The position numbers and the translations under genes were made by a program. Below are positions 8-29,731 of a DNA stretch of 31,789 nucleotides, one piece after another; positions within the stretch are counted from its first letter, which is position 1; the number at the start of each line of letters is the position of its first letter. Below the pieces are notes generated by a model. That model was not told the origin of the DNA. It saw only the letters and a program-made list of their open reading frames with translations, and made no database searches. This stretch comes from a virus. The stretch lies in the IMG/VR virus record IMGVR_UViG_3300037222_000024, positions 1 to 31,789 of that record; one strand, 5' to 3'.

Positions 8-85
8 TCAGCGGAAAAACGCCGCCGCCACTTTCGCGACGACGGCGGACAGATAAACGATGATAGCGATCTCGGTGGGCGTCAT
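8..85 (-). CDS. Possible 25-aa single-span membrane peptide
   Basis: A 25-codon frame (MTPTEIAIIVYLSAVVAKVA...) begins one base after the stop codon of the holin-like gene, with GTGAG just ahead of its ATG. It would form one hydrophobic helix at about residues 5-22 and ends in FFR. Tight coupling to the upstream gene and the membrane character suggest an accessory lysis peptide, but nothing this short can be assigned by eye. It could equally be chance. Confidence 0.35.
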   Translation of the reverse strand: MTPTEIAIIVYLSAVVAKVAAAFFR

Positions 86-86
86 C

Positions 87-344
87 TCACTTCGCGGTAG
101 CTTTCGCTGTGGCCTTCACGCTGGCGTCCTCGACTTGTGTCAAAGTCGAATGCGTGGTCGCGTCTTTCCCGACGAGGCCCAGATAGCCGAGAATGAGCCC
201 GAGCACGTCAGGCGCAGTGACCGCCTGCTCCAGCGGGACGCCAGCGGCCATTTGGTGCGCGATAGCGGCGCCCACGGTGAGAAACGCGGCGAGGCCGCCT
301 AGCGTTGTCTTCTTGTTTGCGAGCATCGACTTGAGAAATTCCAT
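87..344 (-). CDS. Holin-like small membrane protein (85 aa)
   Basis: The protein begins with a short basic amphipathic segment (MEFLKSMLANKKTTLGG). One hydrophobic helix follows at about residues 14-32, a second apolar stretch at about 46-60 (APDVLGLILGYLGLVGKDA), and then a polar tail rich in Ala, Lys and Thr. The pattern KKTT-G-hydrophobic helix-hydrophobic loop-GLVGKD is common in short phage holin or holin-accessory proteins encoded beside lysis enzymes. Here it closes the lysis/accessory block, 3 bases downstream of the NlpC-like gene. The holin role is inferred from size, topology and position. No catalytic or binding motif is visible, so it could also be a superinfection-type membrane protein. 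Confidence 0.5.
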   Translation of the reverse strand: MEFLKSMLANKKTTLGGLAAFLTVGAAIAHQMAAGVPLEQAVTAPDVLGLILGYLGLVGKDATTHSTLTQVEDASVKATAKATAK

Positions 345-3674: not shown

Positions 3675-4235
3675 TTAGCTCTCCGCAGCGGCAAGGCCGC
3701 ATTTCGTGCGCTCGCGTTCCGGCTCCCAAATCGGCGGGAAGTTGCCCTTCTCGTAAGCAGCCGTGACAAGCGTGACGAACTGCTGCCACTTCGCCGGATC
3801 GGTGCAAGGATCTCTGTGCCCTCCACCGGCTTTCCCGAGGTCGTAATGCGAGCAGAACCCCGGCCCGACGCCGGCGCGCGCCCAACGCAACGGGATTTGA
3901 AGATGATGGAGGTGGAATGCGATGATGTTGGCGGCGGCTTCCCATTCGACGCTCGCGAATCCCTTGGCCGCGAAGCCGCCCATTTCGAAGCCGACCGACC
4001 GAGAATTGAAGGCGACGCAATGCCAAGCCTTGTCGGCGACGTCGACCATCTGCGTCACTTCCGAGCCGTCTTCCTTGATGACGAAGTGCGCGGAGACGTT
4101 GGATCGCTTTTGCGCGAACCAATCGATGGAGCCCGCGTAGGAGCCCTCGCAATCGTGCAGACACAGCAAATCTACACGCGCTCCATTTCGCGAAGAGAAA
4201 TTTGGGCTCGGCTTCCATTTAAGCGGAGGGAGCAT
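3675..4235 (-). CDS. N-acetylmuramoyl-L-alanine amidase (Amidase_2), endolysin
   Basis: This 186-residue single-domain amidase would cut the bond between MurNAc and the L-Ala of the stem peptide. The Amidase_2 layout is visible: His27 in LLCLHDCEGS, SAHFVI at 48-53, the VGFEM strand with Glu84, SHYDL at 129-133 and GGGHRDP at 137-143. His27 and His140 are the likely zinc ligands, with Cys144 or a nearby Asp as third. There is no signal peptide, so release would depend on a holin. Its first 17 bases overlap the end of the HNH gene. Its first 14 codons nearly duplicate, with different synonymous codons, a truncated amidase start at 4839-4892. The start uses AAGG 7 bases upstream. Confidence 0.85.
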   Translation of the reverse strand: MLPPLKWKPSPNFSSRNGARVDLLCLHDCEGSYAGSIDWFAQKRSNVSAHFVIKEDGSEVTQMVDVADKAWHCVAFNSRSVGFEMGGFAAKGFASVEWEAAANIIAFHLHHLQIPLRWARAGVGPGFCSHYDLGKAGGGHRDPCTDPAKWQQFVTLVTAAYEKGNFPPIWEPERERTKCGLAAAES

Positions 4236-4775
4236 TGCGATGCCTTTCTCTAGCTTTTGCGCCGATCTTGGCGCGCGTTTCCGGCGAGCAAACGCGGCCC
4301 TTTAGAGACGCAGATTGTCTCGCTACACGTTCGGGAGGAGGAGGGCCAAACACTCGTCCTTTGTTTGACCGGCCGTGGAGTATCATGTCGGCCGCGTTCT
4401 CGGCGTGCGTTCCCCATCTCAAGTGCGAACCGGTAATGCACCCAAGGTGGCCGTTGCCGCATCCATGAAGTGTCTCGGCACCCTCAAATGGTTCCGGCCC
4501 ATTAACCGCTCGCAAATTATTCGGCTGACGTATTGGAGGCGTCCATCTTTCCTCATGGCCGCATATCCCTTCGTCTTGGAAAATGGCCAGATAAGACATT
4601 CGTCGCCTTCGTAGTTGATGGCACGCTCAATAAAAGCGGCAGGCGCGCCCTCTTTCGTTCGACCCGCTAGCGGATCGCCATGCCGCCGCATCCTTGCCGC
4701 ATGCAGCTTGCAAAGACCCAATGAATCTTTTGGATTGCCACACCCATCGATCTTGCATATTTTATCCATAGCCAT
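4219..4775 (-). pseudogene. HNH homing endonuclease, split by a 1-base frameshift
   Basis: The first frame, starting at 4775, encodes a zinc finger (Cys7, Cys12, Cys22, His25; C-x4-C-x9-C-x2-H) and RMRRHGDP, then DECLIWPF and YVSRIICERL. The HNH core continues only in another frame: VNGPEPFEGAETLHGCGNGH, then GSHLRWGTHAEN. A NUMOD3-like helical motif follows at the end (SPETRAKIGAKARERH). Restoring one base near 4506-4507 (CGGTTAATG to CGGGTTAATG) joins the frames into ICERVNGPEP and about 185 residues. It may be an inactivating deletion, a sequencing error, or much less likely recoding. The gene lies between a broken and an intact amidase start, fitting a freestanding homing endonuclease. 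Confidence 0.75.
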
Positions 4776-12922: not shown

Positions 12923-13456
12923 TTAGCCGGCGACGCGGAGGATCGCGTTCATATCGTTTTGGTTGACGCCATCGACGCGCCAGATGCGACCGAAGAAATC
13001 CCAGAAGTATTTTTCCGCCTGATTGAAATAAATCTCCATATGGGTGACCTCCTTCAACTCGAAGTCTTGGCCGACGAGATCGCCGCGCTTGTATTCGTCG
13101 TTGCCGACCTTCACCATGCGCGCCTGGATGATCGCCTTGTATTCGACCGGAATATTGCCGTTTTTGTTCCGCACGCCGCCATAGATCGAATAGAAGTTCT
13201 GCGCCACCCCGTTGACGCCAAACTGACTCATCGATTGCGGATCGATGCCCTTGACCTTGAAGCTTAGATTGAAAGCTTTGTTTCCGAGGCCGCCAATCTC
13301 GATAGCCCCATAGGAGCCGCCTGGATGGAAGTCCTGCGTTAGCTCATCGAGGTCCGAGATTTTGATGTTATTGACGATGAGGCCCTTGTCGGCGTCGCCG
13401 CCGCCGGAGCCGACGAATATCGTCCCCGCTTCCCAGATGAATAATGACGACGCCAT
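12923..13456 (-). CDS. FII: Major tail tube protein (P2 FII-like)
   Basis: This 177-residue protein follows the sheath, the usual position of the tube. Diagnostic stretches are GLIVNNIKISDLDELTQDFH, PGGSYGAIEIGGLGNKAF and NLSFKVKGIDPQSMSQFG. These fit the phage major tail tube family, whose hexameric rings form the inner conduit of contractile tails. AAAGGA lies about 9 bases upstream of the ATG. No oddities are seen. Confidence 0.85.
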   Translation of the reverse strand: MASSLFIWEAGTIFVGSGGGDADKGLIVNNIKISDLDELTQDFHPGGSYGAIEIGGLGNKAFNLSFKVKGIDPQSMSQFGVNGVAQNFYSIYGGVRNKNGNIPVEYKAIIQARMVKVGNDEYKRGDLVGQDFELKEVTHMEIYFNQAEKYFWDFFGRIWRVDGVNQNDMNAILRVAG

Positions 13457-13498: not shown

Positions 13499-15349
13499 TC
13501 AGCCGGCGAGCTGTTGCGCCTGGGTGGACAGCGTGGCGATTTCCTGAATGAGCGCCGTGCGGTCGAGTCCACTGTCGATCGTGACTTGCAGAATCGGCGC
13601 GGGCTCTTCGCCGTCGAAGAAGACGCGGAATTTGCCGGCGCGCAGATTGTCCGGCGTGTTGACCGAGCTGTCAAAGCCAACCGCCCAACCGATAAGACAG
13701 TCATTGGCCTTGAGATCGACCGAGATGGCCGCCATGTCGTTGAGAACGTCTTGCACGCCTTGCAGCGTGACGTTATCGACGCCGAGGCGGAGGCGGATGC
13801 TTTTCAGCAACGCGAGGTGAATAAAGTCACGACCGCGCGTCTTGTTGAACAGATTCCACAGCGGGTCCGTGCTGGCGTTCATGTAGGAGATCAGCGACCA
13901 TCCGCTATCCGTGAGCGAAGCGTCAGCATGATTGCCGCGCGCCACGACGCCGACGCCGCTGGCGAGGAGTTCCTGCCCGTCCGTCGCGCCGTCGAGTAGC
14001 GAGAAGCTGTCGACGCGCACGGTGCCGAGAATGCCTTGGATCGGCTGATTGGCGAACGAATGGAACGGATAGCCGGCATTTGCGAAATCGACCCGCACGC
14101 CGATGCCGAGCGCTTGAGCGACGACATCCTGTGTCTCGGTCCCGGTCCCGGCCAGATTTTCGATGATGACCGGATCGTCGACCGGGATAAGGCGCTTGCT
14201 CGCCAGCGTCGTCTGCCAGTTGATCGCATCTGTTTTCGTGGTGCCGGGGCCGCCGACGATGGCATGGGCCATCAGCGCTTCGCAGACGGCGGGGAGCGCC
14301 GCGCAAAGCGGGTTGGCGAGCAATTCGCCCCCCGTTACTGCGACCGTGACATTGAACTCGTCGCCGATCTGGAAGTCTGGCGAACCGTCCGCGATGGTGA
14401 ACCCGATCTGATCGGCATAGGCGCTGCCGACCGTCGCTTGCGGCAGCGGGTTGCCGAAAGGGTCAGCAACCGAGAATACGCCGCCATTGGTCGGCACGAC
14501 CGCCGACACGGCGAGGTCGAACTCGTCGCCCTTGATGAAATCTGGCGTGCCGTCCGCGATGGTGAAGCCGATGCCGAGGCTGCTCGTGTAAGCCGCTCCG
14601 ACCACCGCGAGACCGTCAACCGTGCCATCGGGGCGTAGAACCACGAAAGTGCCGCCATTGGTCGCGGTAAGCTGGCAGACAGCGCGCCACGTTCCGAGCG
14701 TCGTGCTGGCGTTCGATGTGAGCGAACCAAGCGTGCCCCCGCCGGTATTTCCGCCAGCCTTTGGCGCGGAAGCCGCCGATGTGCCGCCGCCGATGCAAAT
14801 GAGTTCGTAAATGCCAGGCTGGACGCCGGTGAGATTTGGAGGACTCGCGAGAGTGAGCGCGCCGCCGCCGACATTGCCGCCGACACGCGCCGCCGCCTCG
14901 GTGACGGTCATCGTGCCGCCGACGAAGGTGTATTCGCCGGTGAAGCCGGGGAAGCCCAGCAAACGCGGCGTCACGCCGAGCAGCGATGGTGCGGTCAGCA
15001 GCGCATAAATGCCGGTCTTGGCGCCAGAGGTGCCGATGATGTTCGTCATCGTCTCGGCGGTATCTCCGCCGGTCGCCACGCGCACCACGACCGCGCGCGC
15101 CGAGACTTGCTGCGACATGAGCTGATTGTTGACGGCGAGCAGCGTCTTATAAAGCGGACCCGACCCGATGTTGGCGAGGACGGCCGGATCGCCAGTGTTG
15201 ATGTCCACCGGCGTGTTGAGTGGAAACATCGTCGCGTTGGCGTCGTCGGACGGCAGCACAATGCCGAGCACCGAGAAGTCGCCATAGGTCGGCGGGTAAA
15301 CATCGTTGTCGACGATGTTAAAGATTACGCCGAAAGACGGTTCTGTCAT
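13499..15349 (-). CDS. FI: Contractile tail sheath protein with inserted decoration-type module
   Basis: The flanks are a P2-FI-like sheath: FNIVDNDVYPPTYGDFSVLG at the N-terminus, GVTPRLLGFPGFT at ~125-137, NPLCAALPAVCEALMAHAIV at ~346-365 and RGRDFIHLALLKSIRLRLG near the C-terminus. In ordinary sheaths the PRLLGFPG strand leads directly into the ALPAVCEAL helix. Here about 200 residues interrupt it. Residues 150-338 of that insert are colinear with the phage's own head decoration protein and contain the same nested repeat. The 616-residue length reflects the insert, since P2 FI is about 400. A strong terminator-like hairpin lies 16 bases upstream of the ATG. GGAG supplies the ribosome site. 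Confidence 0.9.
   Translation of the reverse strand: MTEPSFGVIFNIVDNDVYPPTYGDFSVLGIVLPSDDANATMFPLNTPVDINTGDPAVLANIGSGPLYKTLLAVNNQLMSQQVSARAVVVRVATGGDTAETMTNIIGTSGAKTGIYALLTAPSLLGVTPRLLGFPGFTGEYTFVGGTMTVTEAAARVGGNVGGGALTLASPPNLTGVQPGIYELICIGGGTSAASAPKAGGNTGGGTLGSLTSNASTTLGTWRAVCQLTATNGGTFVVLRPDGTVDGLAVVGAAYTSSLGIGFTIADGTPDFIKGDEFDLAVSAVVPTNGGVFSVADPFGNPLPQATVGSAYADQIGFTIADGSPDFQIGDEFNVTVAVTGGELLANPLCAALPAVCEALMAHAIVGGPGTTKTDAINWQTTLASKRLIPVDDPVIIENLAGTGTETQDVVAQALGIGVRVDFANAGYPFHSFANQPIQGILGTVRVDSFSLLDGATDGQELLASGVGVVARGNHADASLTDSGWSLISYMNASTDPLWNLFNKTRGRDFIHLALLKSIRLRLGVDNVTLQGVQDVLNDMAAISVDLKANDCLIGWAVGFDSSVNTPDNLRAGKFRVFFDGEEPAPILQVTIDSGLDRTALIQEIATLSTQAQQLAG
14336..14902 (-). repeat. Decoration-type module, sheath copy
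   Basis: Sheath residues 150-338 are homologous to decoration-protein residues 57-243. Over the best 138 aligned positions there are no gaps and about 89 identities by hand count (near 64%). Hallmarks are GGNTGGGTLGSL, GTFVVLRPDGTVDG and two copies of GFTIADG-PDF--GDEF. The nucleotide sequences have diverged more than the proteins, so this is not a recent duplication. Confidence 0.85.
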
Positions 15350-26180: not shown

Positions 26181-27203
26181 TTAGATCGTGCCGGACGCCA
26201 GCGCCTGCGGCATGGTGCAGACGTGCAGCGGGTAGCTGTAGACCTCGACGGACGCAAAGGAATCACGAACAGTATCGACGACCATCCATGAATATCGTCC
26301 CTGGCCCGGCGTATTGACAAATTCGAAGCGCTCCGCCGGCGCGTAGGCAACTTGGAAAATTCCCGCGCCAGCCGGGAAAAACTTCACCTTGTTCGTCGGA
26401 ACGGCGACAGTGGAATTGTCGTCCGTGCCACGGTAGTTGTGCCAAAGGATTCCACCGAAATCGTAGGTTTTCCAGGTGCGGCCAACAATACTGCGGAGTT
26501 GCGGGGCCTCAACGTTGAATTTGTAGGTGTCTCGCACCTCTTTTGACGTTGTGAAGGCGTCCCAAAAGGCGTCGCCACAGAGCGCATGGACCTCGACACC
26601 TGTCCCGCCGAGTCCCTTCAAGGATCGGATCATGGCGCGGATGATCGTATTGGATTGGGCGATGATAGCTCCCTCGGTCGCGGAAGAGCTAAAATTAAAT
26701 ACAATCTCGGCTCCAGGCGTCTGGCTGAACTCATCCCACCAATCGTATAGGACGCTCCCGTCAGCATCGACGACAATGCCCTGAACGGCGCCGAGGCGCA
26801 TGTTCTCTTCGGTGAGTTCGAAGTTCTTATTGATTTTCATTTGGCGGCGAGTGATCTCGATCGACAGGTCTTTGACCGCCGCCTCTTGCCCGAATTCTCG
26901 AATCCCCTGCAATTCGTGCGCCCAAACCGTCGACGCCTCGAAAAGGCGAAATGTTTTGAAGCCGCGAACTTTTCGCTTGTCGCCGCCCTCGGTTGTGGGC
27001 GGTGCGCCACGCGGAGAGGTTTGGATAATTCTCTGCCCGAGGTCTCGCTCCTCAAGCCACACGCCTTCCGTGCGGATGGACTTTTTTTCAAAAAGACCCG
27101 GGATGGTTCCGAGGAAGCTTGGTGTGAATTCCTGCCGATCGATGGCATCAGTCAGAGAGCGAAACGAAAAGGCGTCGCCCAGGAAGACGTCTAGGATGGA
27201 CAT
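26181..27203 (-). CDS. E: Major capsid protein (lambda gpE family)
   Basis: This 340-residue protein contains FSFRSLTDAIDRQEFTPSFL, IPGLFEKKSIRTEGVWLEER and TFRLFEASTVWAHELQG. These define the lambda gpE-type capsid family (Phage_cap_E, HK97 fold). Near the C-terminus TVAVPTNKVKFFPAGAGIFQ and YSWMVVDTVRDSFASVEVYS are also family-typical. Unlike P2, which has gene N, the head here is lambda-like. AAGGA lies 8-9 bases before the ATG. A strong terminator-like hairpin ends 45 bases upstream. Confidence 0.9.
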   Translation of the reverse strand: MSILDVFLGDAFSFRSLTDAIDRQEFTPSFLGTIPGLFEKKSIRTEGVWLEERDLGQRIIQTSPRGAPPTTEGGDKRKVRGFKTFRLFEASTVWAHELQGIREFGQEAAVKDLSIEITRRQMKINKNFELTEENMRLGAVQGIVVDADGSVLYDWWDEFSQTPGAEIVFNFSSSATEGAIIAQSNTIIRAMIRSLKGLGGTGVEVHALCGDAFWDAFTTSKEVRDTYKFNVEAPQLRSIVGRTWKTYDFGGILWHNYRGTDDNSTVAVPTNKVKFFPAGAGIFQVAYAPAERFEFVNTPGQGRYSWMVVDTVRDSFASVEVYSYPLHVCTMPQALASGTI

Positions 27204-27337: not shown

Positions 27338-28282
27338 TCAGCGGAACTTGACGAGAGACGTGTTGAACGTAGCGATAGCCGCCGCGATCTGTGCCGCCGT
27401 CGGCGAACCGCCGAACGTGATGTCGCTCAAACGCACCGTCGCGGCCGCATTGATAATAGCTATCTCCGCCGTCGTGCTCGCGCCCGTCGTTGCGCCATAG
27501 CCGGCGATGGCCGCTGGCGTATCTCCCGGCGTCCAGGCGACATATTCCTGATTGACGACAGTCACGTCGAACTCATCGCCGACAATGAAATCGGGAGCGC
27601 CATCGGCAATCGTGAAGCCAAGCTGCGTCGAGAAGGCCGAGCCCACCGTCGCATTGGCGACGAAAACGCCCTTCGGGTCCGTGACCGAGAAAACGCCGCC
27701 GTTGCTGGGGACGACATTGGTCACGGTCATATCGAATTCGTCGCCGACGATGAAGTCCGTGCTGCCGTCCGCGATGGTGAAGTTCGGGCCATGCGCCGAA
27801 TTATAAGCGACGGCGACAGTTGCGATGCCGTCGACCGTGCCGTCCGGCTTGAACACCACAAAAGTGCCGGCATTCGTGGCGGCGACTTCGCAGACGACGC
27901 GCCAGGCGCCCGACACGGCATCGGAGTCGACGGTAAGCGAGCCGACCGTTCCATTGCCGGTATTGCCGCCGCTTTTCGCCGCCGAAGCGATCGATAGAGC
28001 GCCGCCGATGCAGACGACACGATAGATGCCTTGCTGCGACCCCGCGAGATAGGCGGGAGACGCCGGCGTCATGAGGCCCGCGCCGGTATTGCCGCCGGTC
28101 TTCGCGGCGTGCGAGACAGTCGTTGGCGTGGTCTTCAAAACCTGGCCGACGACAATCGTCTGACTGTTCCCGATCACAGCCATATCGCGGGAAAGATAGC
28201 CGACGCCATCCGTATCATCGGAAATTAAGAAGGTGAACGGATGGAGAGCTTCGTTGAGTGTGATGCCTTGGGGAGTTCCCAT
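27338..28282 (-). CDS. Head decoration protein with nested repeat module
   Basis: The 314-residue gene sits between protease/scaffold and major capsid, the place of lambda D. The N-terminal GITLNEALHPFTFLISDDTD and C-terminal TAEIAIINAAATVRLSDITF, then GSPTAAQIAAAIATFN are decoration-protein features. Residues 57-243 are a repeat region built on GGNTG-GT...R-VC...GTFVV-PDG...GFTIADG-PDF--GDEF. The order of half-repeats suggests one unit inserted inside another. The same nested module occurs in this phage's tail sheath. The function is probably to stabilise or decorate the capsid surface. Confidence 0.8.
   Translation of the reverse strand: MGTPQGITLNEALHPFTFLISDDTDGVGYLSRDMAVIGNSQTIVVGQVLKTTPTTVSHAAKTGGNTGAGLMTPASPAYLAGSQQGIYRVVCIGGALSIASAAKSGGNTGNGTVGSLTVDSDAVSGAWRVVCEVAATNAGTFVVFKPDGTVDGIATVAVAYNSAHGPNFTIADGSTDFIVGDEFDMTVTNVVPSNGGVFSVTDPKGVFVANATVGSAFSTQLGFTIADGAPDFIVGDEFDVTVVNQEYVAWTPGDTPAAIAGYGATTGASTTAEIAIINAAATVRLSDITFGGSPTAAQIAAAIATFNTSLVKFR
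27554..28114 (-). repeat. Decoration-type module, head copy
   Basis: Decoration residues 57-243, colinear with sheath residues 150-338. Internal half-units: GGNTGAGL...GIYRVVCIGGA, a complete unit from GGNTGNGT to GDEFDMTV, then NGGVFSV...GDEFDVTV. The first and third pieces read as the two halves of a single interrupted unit. Confidence 0.85.
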
Positions 28283-28312: not shown

Positions 28313-28768
28313 TTAACGACGGCCCGAGTTGCGGGCTTCCTCTTTGTTGACGACATCGACCGCGTTTTTCCAAAGCGAGGCGTTCGTCGTATTGCTCTTC
28401 TCACCTGTTTCGACGGGGAACTCGCCGAGAACCGTTGCGGCAGCGCGGGCGGCGACCGACGTGGTTTTCGGGACGCCAGCAAGCGCGCCGACAGCCGCGT
28501 CGAGGCTCATGTCAGTATTGAGCGCGAAGTGCTGTGCGGTCGTCTCGCGGCCCTTGGCGTCGGCATGGCCGAGGATGGCGACAATGCGCCCGCGCTCGGC
28601 TTTCGCGCCAGTCGCGAGCCCTTCCGCCAGTCCGGCCTTGTGGCCTTCGGCGACGCCAGCGGCCTTTCCTTCTTTAAACCCGGTCTCGCGGCCAACATTG
28701 TTGCCTTCGGTCACTCCGGCGTGTTGCCCTTCGGTGCGCGCGCGGTCCAAGTCAGTTTGATCAAACAT
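28313..28768 (-). CDS. Probable nested scaffold protein (internal start)
   Basis: Within the protease gene, GGAG lies 7 bases ahead of an in-frame ATG at 28768. The product (151 residues) starts MFDQTDLDRARTEGQ and holds the Gly-periodic helix region (TEGNNVGRETGFKEGKAAGV). This mirrors lambda C/Nu3, where the scaffold is made from an internal start of the protease gene. The start choice is inferred. Confidence 0.5.
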   Translation of the reverse strand: MFDQTDLDRARTEGQHAGVTEGNNVGRETGFKEGKAAGVAEGHKAGLAEGLATGAKAERGRIVAILGHADAKGRETTAQHFALNTDMSLDAAVGALAGVPKTTSVAARAAATVLGEFPVETGEKSNTTNASLWKNAVDVVNKEEARNSGRR

Positions 28769-29731
28769 CTTCATGCTCCGATTGCTCGCGCGGCCTTTCG
28801 CGGACGAGGACAGGTTCCCGACAAGATCGGCAAACGATCCAATGTCGTCGACGAGGCCGGCCCCTTGCGCGGCACGGCCGATATAGGTCCGCGCCTCGGT
28901 GGCGCGAGCCGCCTTCGCGGAAAGGCGTCTTCCACGCCCCGCCGCGACGGTATTCAAAAACTGGTCATAGAACGCATCGACCTCGGCCTGGAGGTCGGTA
29001 CGGACTTCCTTCGACAACGGCTCGTATGGATTCCCATCGACCTTATGCGCGCCGGCATGGATGAATGTCGGCGTCACGCCAGCCCGGTCGATCGCGCGGG
29101 AATAGTCCGCGTGCATGAGGACGACGCCGATTGATCCCGCAAGGCCAGATTCGGTCGAGGTGATCGACTTCGCCCCGGAGGCCAACGCATAGGCCGCGCT
29201 CGCCGCCATCCCGTTGACGACCGCGTGAACCGGCTTCTCACCATTGACCTTGCGAATAAGCGCCGAAGTCTCCATCGCGCCGACCGCCTCGCCGCCGGGG
29301 GACTCGATGTCGAGCACGATGGATTTGACTTTCGGATCACGAGCCGCGCTTTCGATTTGATGCGCGATGCCCTCATAGCTCGTCATTCCAGACGATGCGC
29401 CGATGAATGCGCCCCGGTTCACAAGCGATCCGGTGATGGTGATGACAGCGACACCCTCCGGCGTGCGGCGGTAAGGCAACCGCGCTGGGCGCCCGTTAGC
29501 GTCAGTCTCCGTCGCATCGCCGACAAAGCGTGATGCGTCGGGGCGCCGCGCCATCGCTTGCGCGACCGCCTCCGCGACTTCCGGGTCATGTGCATTGACC
29601 ATCGGCGCAATCGCGTCGACGCCAATGCGGCCAGCGAGCACTTCCGTCAGGATCGCCAGCTTGTCCGGCAAGATCAGCAGCGGCCGGTTTATGACGCGAT
29701 CAGCGATGTGGACGAGTAAATTCGACATCAA
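28313..29731 (-). CDS. S49/SppA-type head maturation protease with scaffold domain
   Basis: The 472-residue protein has an S49 domain at about residues 90-300: VKSIVLDIESPGGEAVGAME, then HAVVNGMAASAAYALASGAK with the nucleophile Ser178, and TFIHAGAHKVDGNPYEPLS with the general base Lys230. This Ser-Lys dyad is that of SppA and lambda gpC. It processes scaffold and head proteins during prohead maturation. Residues ~322-472 are the scaffold part, with repeated EG-x-x-x-G units and a helical tail. It overlaps the gpW-like gene by 4 bases. Confidence 0.9.
   Translation of the reverse strand: MMSNLLVHIADRVINRPLLILPDKLAILTEVLAGRIGVDAIAPMVNAHDPEVAEAVAQAMARRPDASRFVGDATETDANGRPARLPYRRTPEGVAVITITGSLVNRGAFIGASSGMTSYEGIAHQIESAARDPKVKSIVLDIESPGGEAVGAMETSALIRKVNGEKPVHAVVNGMAASAAYALASGAKSITSTESGLAGSIGVVLMHADYSRAIDRAGVTPTFIHAGAHKVDGNPYEPLSKEVRTDLQAEVDAFYDQFLNTVAAGRGRRLSAKAARATEARTYIGRAAQGAGLVDDIGSFADLVGNLSSSAKGRASNRSMKMFDQTDLDRARTEGQHAGVTEGNNVGRETGFKEGKAAGVAEGHKAGLAEGLATGAKAERGRIVAILGHADAKGRETTAQHFALNTDMSLDAAVGALAGVPKTTSVAARAAATVLGEFPVETGEKSNTTNASLWKNAVDVVNKEEARNSGRR

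Follow-up and report, generated by a model that had tools for sequence, protein, structure and literature searches.

A self-nested domain with an FlgL/FlgK-like predicted fold is inserted in both the tail sheath and the head decoration protein of a phage

Results

A shared block interrupts the tail sheath and head decoration genes

The window analysed here is the whole IMG/VR record IMGVR_UViG_3300037222_000024, a stretch of 31,789 nucleotides, in which a tail sheath gene and a head decoration gene carry similar blocks (Table 1). The phrog_23 tail sheath profile spans residues 4 to 612 of the sheath, with core sequence flanking the insert on both sides, and a structure search matched the sheath model to the pyocin R2 sheath over residues 13 to 581. 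The insert lies between the sequences PRLLGFPGFT and NPLCAALPAV. The decoration gene sits between the head protease gene and the gene for a lambda-E-type major capsid protein, whose shell is what the decoration protein would coat. Against HDPD (PF02924), the decoration protein of the window scored 20.8 bits, below the curated Pfam cut-off of 29.1, and an orthologue-like relative (L077) scored 33.5 bits, above it. In the orthologue from L075, HDPD positions 1 to 113 align over residues 8 to 307, on both sides of the module. The block had initially been described as homologous to the head decoration protein itself; it belongs to neither the sheath proper nor the decoration protein proper and is an insert in each.

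A single BLASTP comparison aligned the sheath and decoration blocks with 117 identities over 191 residues (61%) and no gaps (208 bits, E 9e-67), and the whole record contains only these two copies. The first-pass annotation had located the similarity at sheath residues 150-338 (14336-14902, minus strand) and decoration residues 57-243 (27554-28114, minus strand). These coordinates and the colinearity were correct, but the accompanying hand count (about 89 identities in 138 positions, plus 44 ungapped positions) was too low. At the DNA level 357 of 573 positions are identical (62%), and the same codon is used at 68 of the 117 identical residues, indicating that the copies are old and have long been apart. 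The sheath encoded by a second contig (L003) is identical to that of the window, as are parts of the decoration gene in L009 and L010. Since both genes recur, identical, in other metagenomes, the pair of blocks is not an assembly chimera.

Among the other genes of the window, the one at 12923-13456 follows the sheath, where a tail-tube gene would be expected. It matches phrog_55, whose label, head closure, is probably wrong for this gene. The gene at 348-872, at the end of the structural region, matches phrog_1128 (enoyl-CoA hydratase/carnitine racemase-like, listed under morons), and an HNH endonuclease-like gene lies among the late genes at 4219-4599.

Table 1. Positions of the shell genes, modules and units in the window.
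Feature	Position	Strand	Evidence
Tail sheath gene, 616 aa	13499..15349	-	phrog_23 E 9e-39; model matches pyocin R2 sheath, Z 14.8
Sheath module, residues 146-336	14342..14914	-	61% identity over 191 aa to decoration module; pLDDT mostly 80-92
Sheath outer unit, N-terminal half, residues 153-191	14777..14893	-	HMM positions 1-37
Sheath inner unit, complete, residues 195-284	14498..14767	-	HMM positions 1-89, E 9e-38; FlgL-like fold on 190-282, Z 10.7
Sheath outer unit, C-terminal half, residues 286-339	14333..14494	-	HMM positions 35-89; 110 bits joined with N-terminal half
Head decoration gene, 314 aa, lambda gpD-like HDPD with inserted module	27338..28282	-	HDPD E 4.5e-4, below curated cut-off
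Decoration module, residues 52-242	27557..28129	-	BLASTP to sheath module
Decoration outer unit, N-terminal half, residues 59-94	28001..28108	-	HMM
Decoration inner unit, complete, residues 101-190	27713..27982	-	HMM; FlgL 5zj0, Z 10.3, rmsd 2.2 over 84 residues
Decoration outer unit, C-terminal half, residues 193-245	27548..27706	-	HMM; whole outer unit (56..242) matches FlgK 4ut1, Z 8.9
Major capsid protein, lambda E type	26181..27203	-	PF03864 E 2e-70
Head protease gene	28313-29731		Flanks decoration gene

The block is one domain nested in another of its kind

The module consists of two copies of a domain of about 90 residues, the second of which sits within a loop of the first. Both ends of the block and its middle piece align to single domains from the decoration proteins of Pseudomonas phages and cyanophages; 20 columns are invariant. 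Searches with an HMM revealed the same order of units in sheath and decoration protein, namely an N-terminal half, a full unit and a C-terminal half. With an HMM built from 53 independent single units of other phages, the joined outer halves scored 110 bits in the sheath and 105 bits in the decoration protein, compared to about 30 and 72 bits for the halves alone. The inner copy is placed between a strand ending in CIGG and a strand starting with NGGVFSV. At the same site, the sheath of L017/L093 carries one uninterrupted unit, with YRVRAKTAAANGGVFSV in place of the YELICIGG(inner unit)NGGVFSV of the window. Together with the scores of the joined halves, this uninterrupted unit indicates that one copy of the domain interrupts another, and that the pair is inserted in two unrelated host proteins. 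Besides nesting, two units can also come about as head-to-tail tandems, which occur in a sheath (L014:7059-9089) and in decoration proteins (L054:7530-8477 and L074:7491-8429).

The predicted fold resembles the outer domains of FlgL and FlgK

Structure prediction of both proteins, as proposed in the first-pass annotation, placed an extra sandwich module on the sheath core and in the decoration protein; by sequence and model, the head bears the same module as the tail. The AlphaFold model of the decoration protein has a mean pLDDT of 76.6. In the sheath model (mean pLDDT 59.9 overall) the module is well predicted and the core C-terminal to it is weak. The decoration inner unit matched Xanthomonas FlgL (5zj0) with 24% identity, the decoration outer unit, read across its interruption, matched FlgK (4ut1), and the module in the sheath model also matched FlgL (Z scores in Table 1). 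FlgL and FlgK led the structural matches, followed at lower Z by Wzc and FliD domains, and the lack of an Ig fold from this list does not exclude an Ig fold.

When a profile of the unit was searched against 121 ORFs, it matched residues 198-250 of an FlgL (L124, E 4e-6), and hhalign aligned the unit with hand-chosen FlgL rows end to end over 78 columns (probability 91.6, E 8e-7). The reverse search with an FlgL-domain HMM placed module carriers on top (best E 3e-4). A collinear motif, GNTGxG ... Y.v.ft ... y.V.D ... GD.f.v, is common to the unit and FlgL/FlgK. Given the hand-chosen rows, and a PDB-wide profile search with the unit that found nothing, homology to the FlgL/FlgK outer domain is likely but not settled.

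Short matches to designed beta-trefoils and FGF1 around TNGGTFVVLRPDGTVDG in PDB sequence searches were attributed to chance, since trefoils did not appear in any fold search. The periplasmic N-terminal domain of the capsule kinase Wzc gave weak Pfam matches in 9 of 38 units (best E 1e-3) and structural matches with Z of about 8; this likeness perhaps reflects a wider family of exposed domains.

The sheath insertion site is empty, singly occupied, nested or otherwise filled

A survey of sheath genes for the same insertion, also suggested at the outset, revealed several states of the site. It is empty in L092 and L094, which read PRLLGxPGYTWQTxIVGGxxQANPICAALPS, contains one unit in L017/L093 and L091, and contains nested units in the window, L043, L047, L057/L058, L068/L089, L079 and L090. 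Unrelated glycine-rich modules occupy it in L006, L008 and L095 to L097, as well as in Burkholderia phage Mica. This sheath loop seems to be a general hot spot for insertions. The loci of the glycine-rich modules, of GGxGYT/GATG type, are L006:16001-17476, L008:8001-9824, L095:8394-9869, L096, L097 and L007:13914-15392; Mica is a cultured phage, and in L008 a further unrelated domain lies next to the glycine-rich module. The empty-site relatives, together with a pyocin R2-like model bearing an extra, well-predicted module, bear out the proposal of an insertion into an otherwise normal sheath and rule out that the segment is part of the ordinary sheath fold. The aligned sheath relatives include prophages of Microvirga, Methylosinus, Methylobacterium, Rhodoblastus and Xanthobacter, which suggests a host among the Hyphomicrobiales for the window phage.

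Modules and the proteins that carry them have different histories

In a tree of the nested modules, a single clade of sheath modules was rejected (p-AU 1.2e-4). The sheath module of L043 was sister to the decoration module of L075 (support 100/98), whereas in the sheath-core tree L043 was sister to L047 (98/94), and grouping the modules of L043 and L047 was rejected (p-AU 6.6e-4). This conflict between core and module trees indicates that modules move apart from the shell proteins carrying them. Among the relatives, modules jump between sheath and decoration genes. The closest relatives of each window module are found in other phages; the two are not closest to one another in the free tree, and grouping them costs 8.1 log units (p-AU 0.058), so that copying within this genome is unproven from the window alone.

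The unit is widespread in decoration proteins and occurs on both shells in at least four lineages

The module is not confined to this phage: the trees show it to be mobile, and one scan of IMG/VR yielded 518 related stretches. Among the 80 of these kept for further analysis, carriers are mostly HDPD-type (lambda-D-like) decoration proteins of about 220 residues with one unit, and other decoration proteins have tandem (L054, L074) or nested (L055, L075) units. The phrog_23 profile identifies the large carriers as sheaths, and their units are single, tandem or nested. Matches were found in 13 of 50,697 annotated phage records, none of them in an annotated sheath, in seven plasmid records, all in head decoration proteins, and in 5 of 297 Hyphomicrobiales genomes. 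Pfam, PHROG and NCBIfam gave no accepted match to the module (NCBIfam gave nothing), and BFVD one clear match, a viral protein of 523 aa with no stated name. The decoration proteins of Pseudomonas phages Lodos, Turba and Presto and of cyanophage Cy-LDV1 are likewise of HDPD type with an inserted unit, but a single one, unlike the nested pair of the window.

Units were also observed in other tail proteins. A siphophage (L029) carries one in its tail-tube protein (PF18906, L029:11483-12757) and another, 65% identical, in its decoration protein. In Pseudomonas phage Ab19, the structural protein gp67, encoded directly after the tape measure gene (L143:3821-5092), contains one unit, indicating that the domain reaches the tail-tip region too.

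Both decoration protein and sheath carry the module in the window, G012, the near-identical G032/G033, G043 and the Methylosinus Sm6 prophage G052, which resembles G043, that is, in at least four lineages when near-identical records are counted once. Five lineages (G005, G007/G054, G028, G037/G051 and G053) have the module in the sheath and none in the decoration gene, so that display on both shells is common but not obligatory.

Discussion

We propose, with a probability of about 0.6, that the block is a mobile, surface-displayed domain inserted in loops of both shell proteins. Sequence and models place a beta-sandwich of about 90 residues, probably related to the exposed outer domain of FlgL/FlgK, in a loop of a lambda-D-like decoration protein and, separately, in a strand-helix loop of the tail sheath core, the two inserts of the window phage being two-unit blocks with a second copy in a loop of the first. 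Both loops presumably face solvent, which would explain why the shells tolerate the domain; in the sheath, the poorly predicted core C-terminal to the module limits confidence in the exact placement. The virion would then show the domain in hundreds of copies on head and tail, with assembly untouched, and nesting would move the outermost domain farther out and enlarge the surface while requiring no further attachment point. The likeliest function may be to assist the true receptor-binding proteins by attaching weakly and multivalently to the cell or some other surface, although we hold this tentatively and at slightly under even odds.

The module might instead mainly stabilise both shells, with neighbouring copies touching and clamping capsomers or sheath rings. 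HDPD proteins cement capsids, as established for lambda gpD, which counts for such a role, and in the sheath of phage 812, domain II is in contact with its neighbours (quoted in PMC9230969). We nevertheless consider stabilisation rather unlikely as the main role, since related phages have empty-site sheaths (L092, L094) and an insert-free decoration protein (L006), and unrelated modules replace the domain at the same sheath site. The free variation of site occupancy among near relatives and the recombination of modules would also fit a near-neutral coding segment that spreads through permissive loops by recombination between like sequences, with no selected function. This is improbable in our view: reading frames remain open and fold residues (G, D, P and F positions) are conserved across 38 diverse units, so that selection is needed at least for folding, and large inserts are costly on abundant proteins. 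The presence of two similar blocks on one contig could in principle reflect chimeric assembly or a recent duplication within the genome. Chimerism is ruled out by the recurrence of both genes in other samples, and a recent intragenomic copy by the low DNA identity, the few shared codons and the trees, in which each module has its closest relatives in other phages, making this by far the least credible explanation.

The mobile-domain reading gives a name to a widespread virion domain that has had no model, and links the two shells of a single virus by descent. The series of empty, single, nested and swapped states at one site makes the stepwise acquisition of a domain by a shell protein traceable, and the self-insertion represented by the nested copy is open to structural tests. 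The link with FlgL and FlgK points to a common pool of exposed domains from which both phages and bacteria furnish their helical and icosahedral surface assemblies.

The outer domain of FlgL (5zj0, 5ziz) and FlgK (4ut1) has the same fold as the unit and is also inserted in the subunit of a helical tube; in sequence, the two are only weakly related. Flagellar proteins, however, have a D0/D1 helical core that the module carriers, phage sheaths and HDPD proteins, lack, and flagellar models matched none of these carriers. In the available excerpt of PMC10457771, the sheath of phage XM1 has an insertion domain (InD) in its NTD that resembles domain D3 of the flagellar axial protein FliD; the excerpt describes it as unique to XM1 and single, and makes no mention of a counterpart in an XM1 decoration protein. 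That the domain was taken from, or is shared with, flagellar hook-filament junction proteins and is shown on head and tail for flagellar mimicry or contact is a long shot. If true, the virion would dock along the flagella of its host, or its surface would pass as self with host appendages or defences, and the XM1 insert would be a second case of the same strategy.

T5 is a precedent for exposed domains on both the head and the tail of a single virion: its decoration protein pb10 displays an Ig-like domain (PMC5292684), and its tail tube protein has an Ig-like domain as well (PMC9022992). According to PMC9230969, domains added to sheaths are located away from the tube in the structures known and have a proposed role in adhesion or stability; the available portions of the phage 7-7-1 and Milano papers describe no similar sheath domain. 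The suggestion that the shared domain is undescribed therefore holds in part: Ig-like domains exposed on heads, tubes and sheaths are known (PMC5292684, PMC9022992, PMC9230969), but our literature search turned up no description of a sheath with this domain, of self-nesting or of head-sheath sharing at the sequence level. What is new is the self-nesting, the sharing between head and tail, the range of site states from empty to nested, and the link to flagella.

Tailed phages possess promiscuous Ig-like domains (Fraser et al. 2006, summarised in PMC9022992; Evseev et al. 2022, PMC9230969); these are exposed beta-sandwiches on unrelated structural proteins, dispensable, exchanged between phages and proposed to bind carbohydrates weakly. 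The units described here share with them the addition of a presumably exposed beta-sandwich to unrelated structural proteins, dispensability and exchange between phages. The units differ in that they match none of the classes named there (Big_1/Big_2, I-set and FN3) in Pfam, the Ig-class models giving only sub-threshold, chance-level matches among 38 units (e.g., Big_8, E 0.054 in two), and in that their fold matches are led by FlgL and FlgK rather than by Ig domains. The module is best read as a mobile, surface-displayed accessory domain that forms a distinct new family within the phenomenon of promiscuous Ig-like phage domains.
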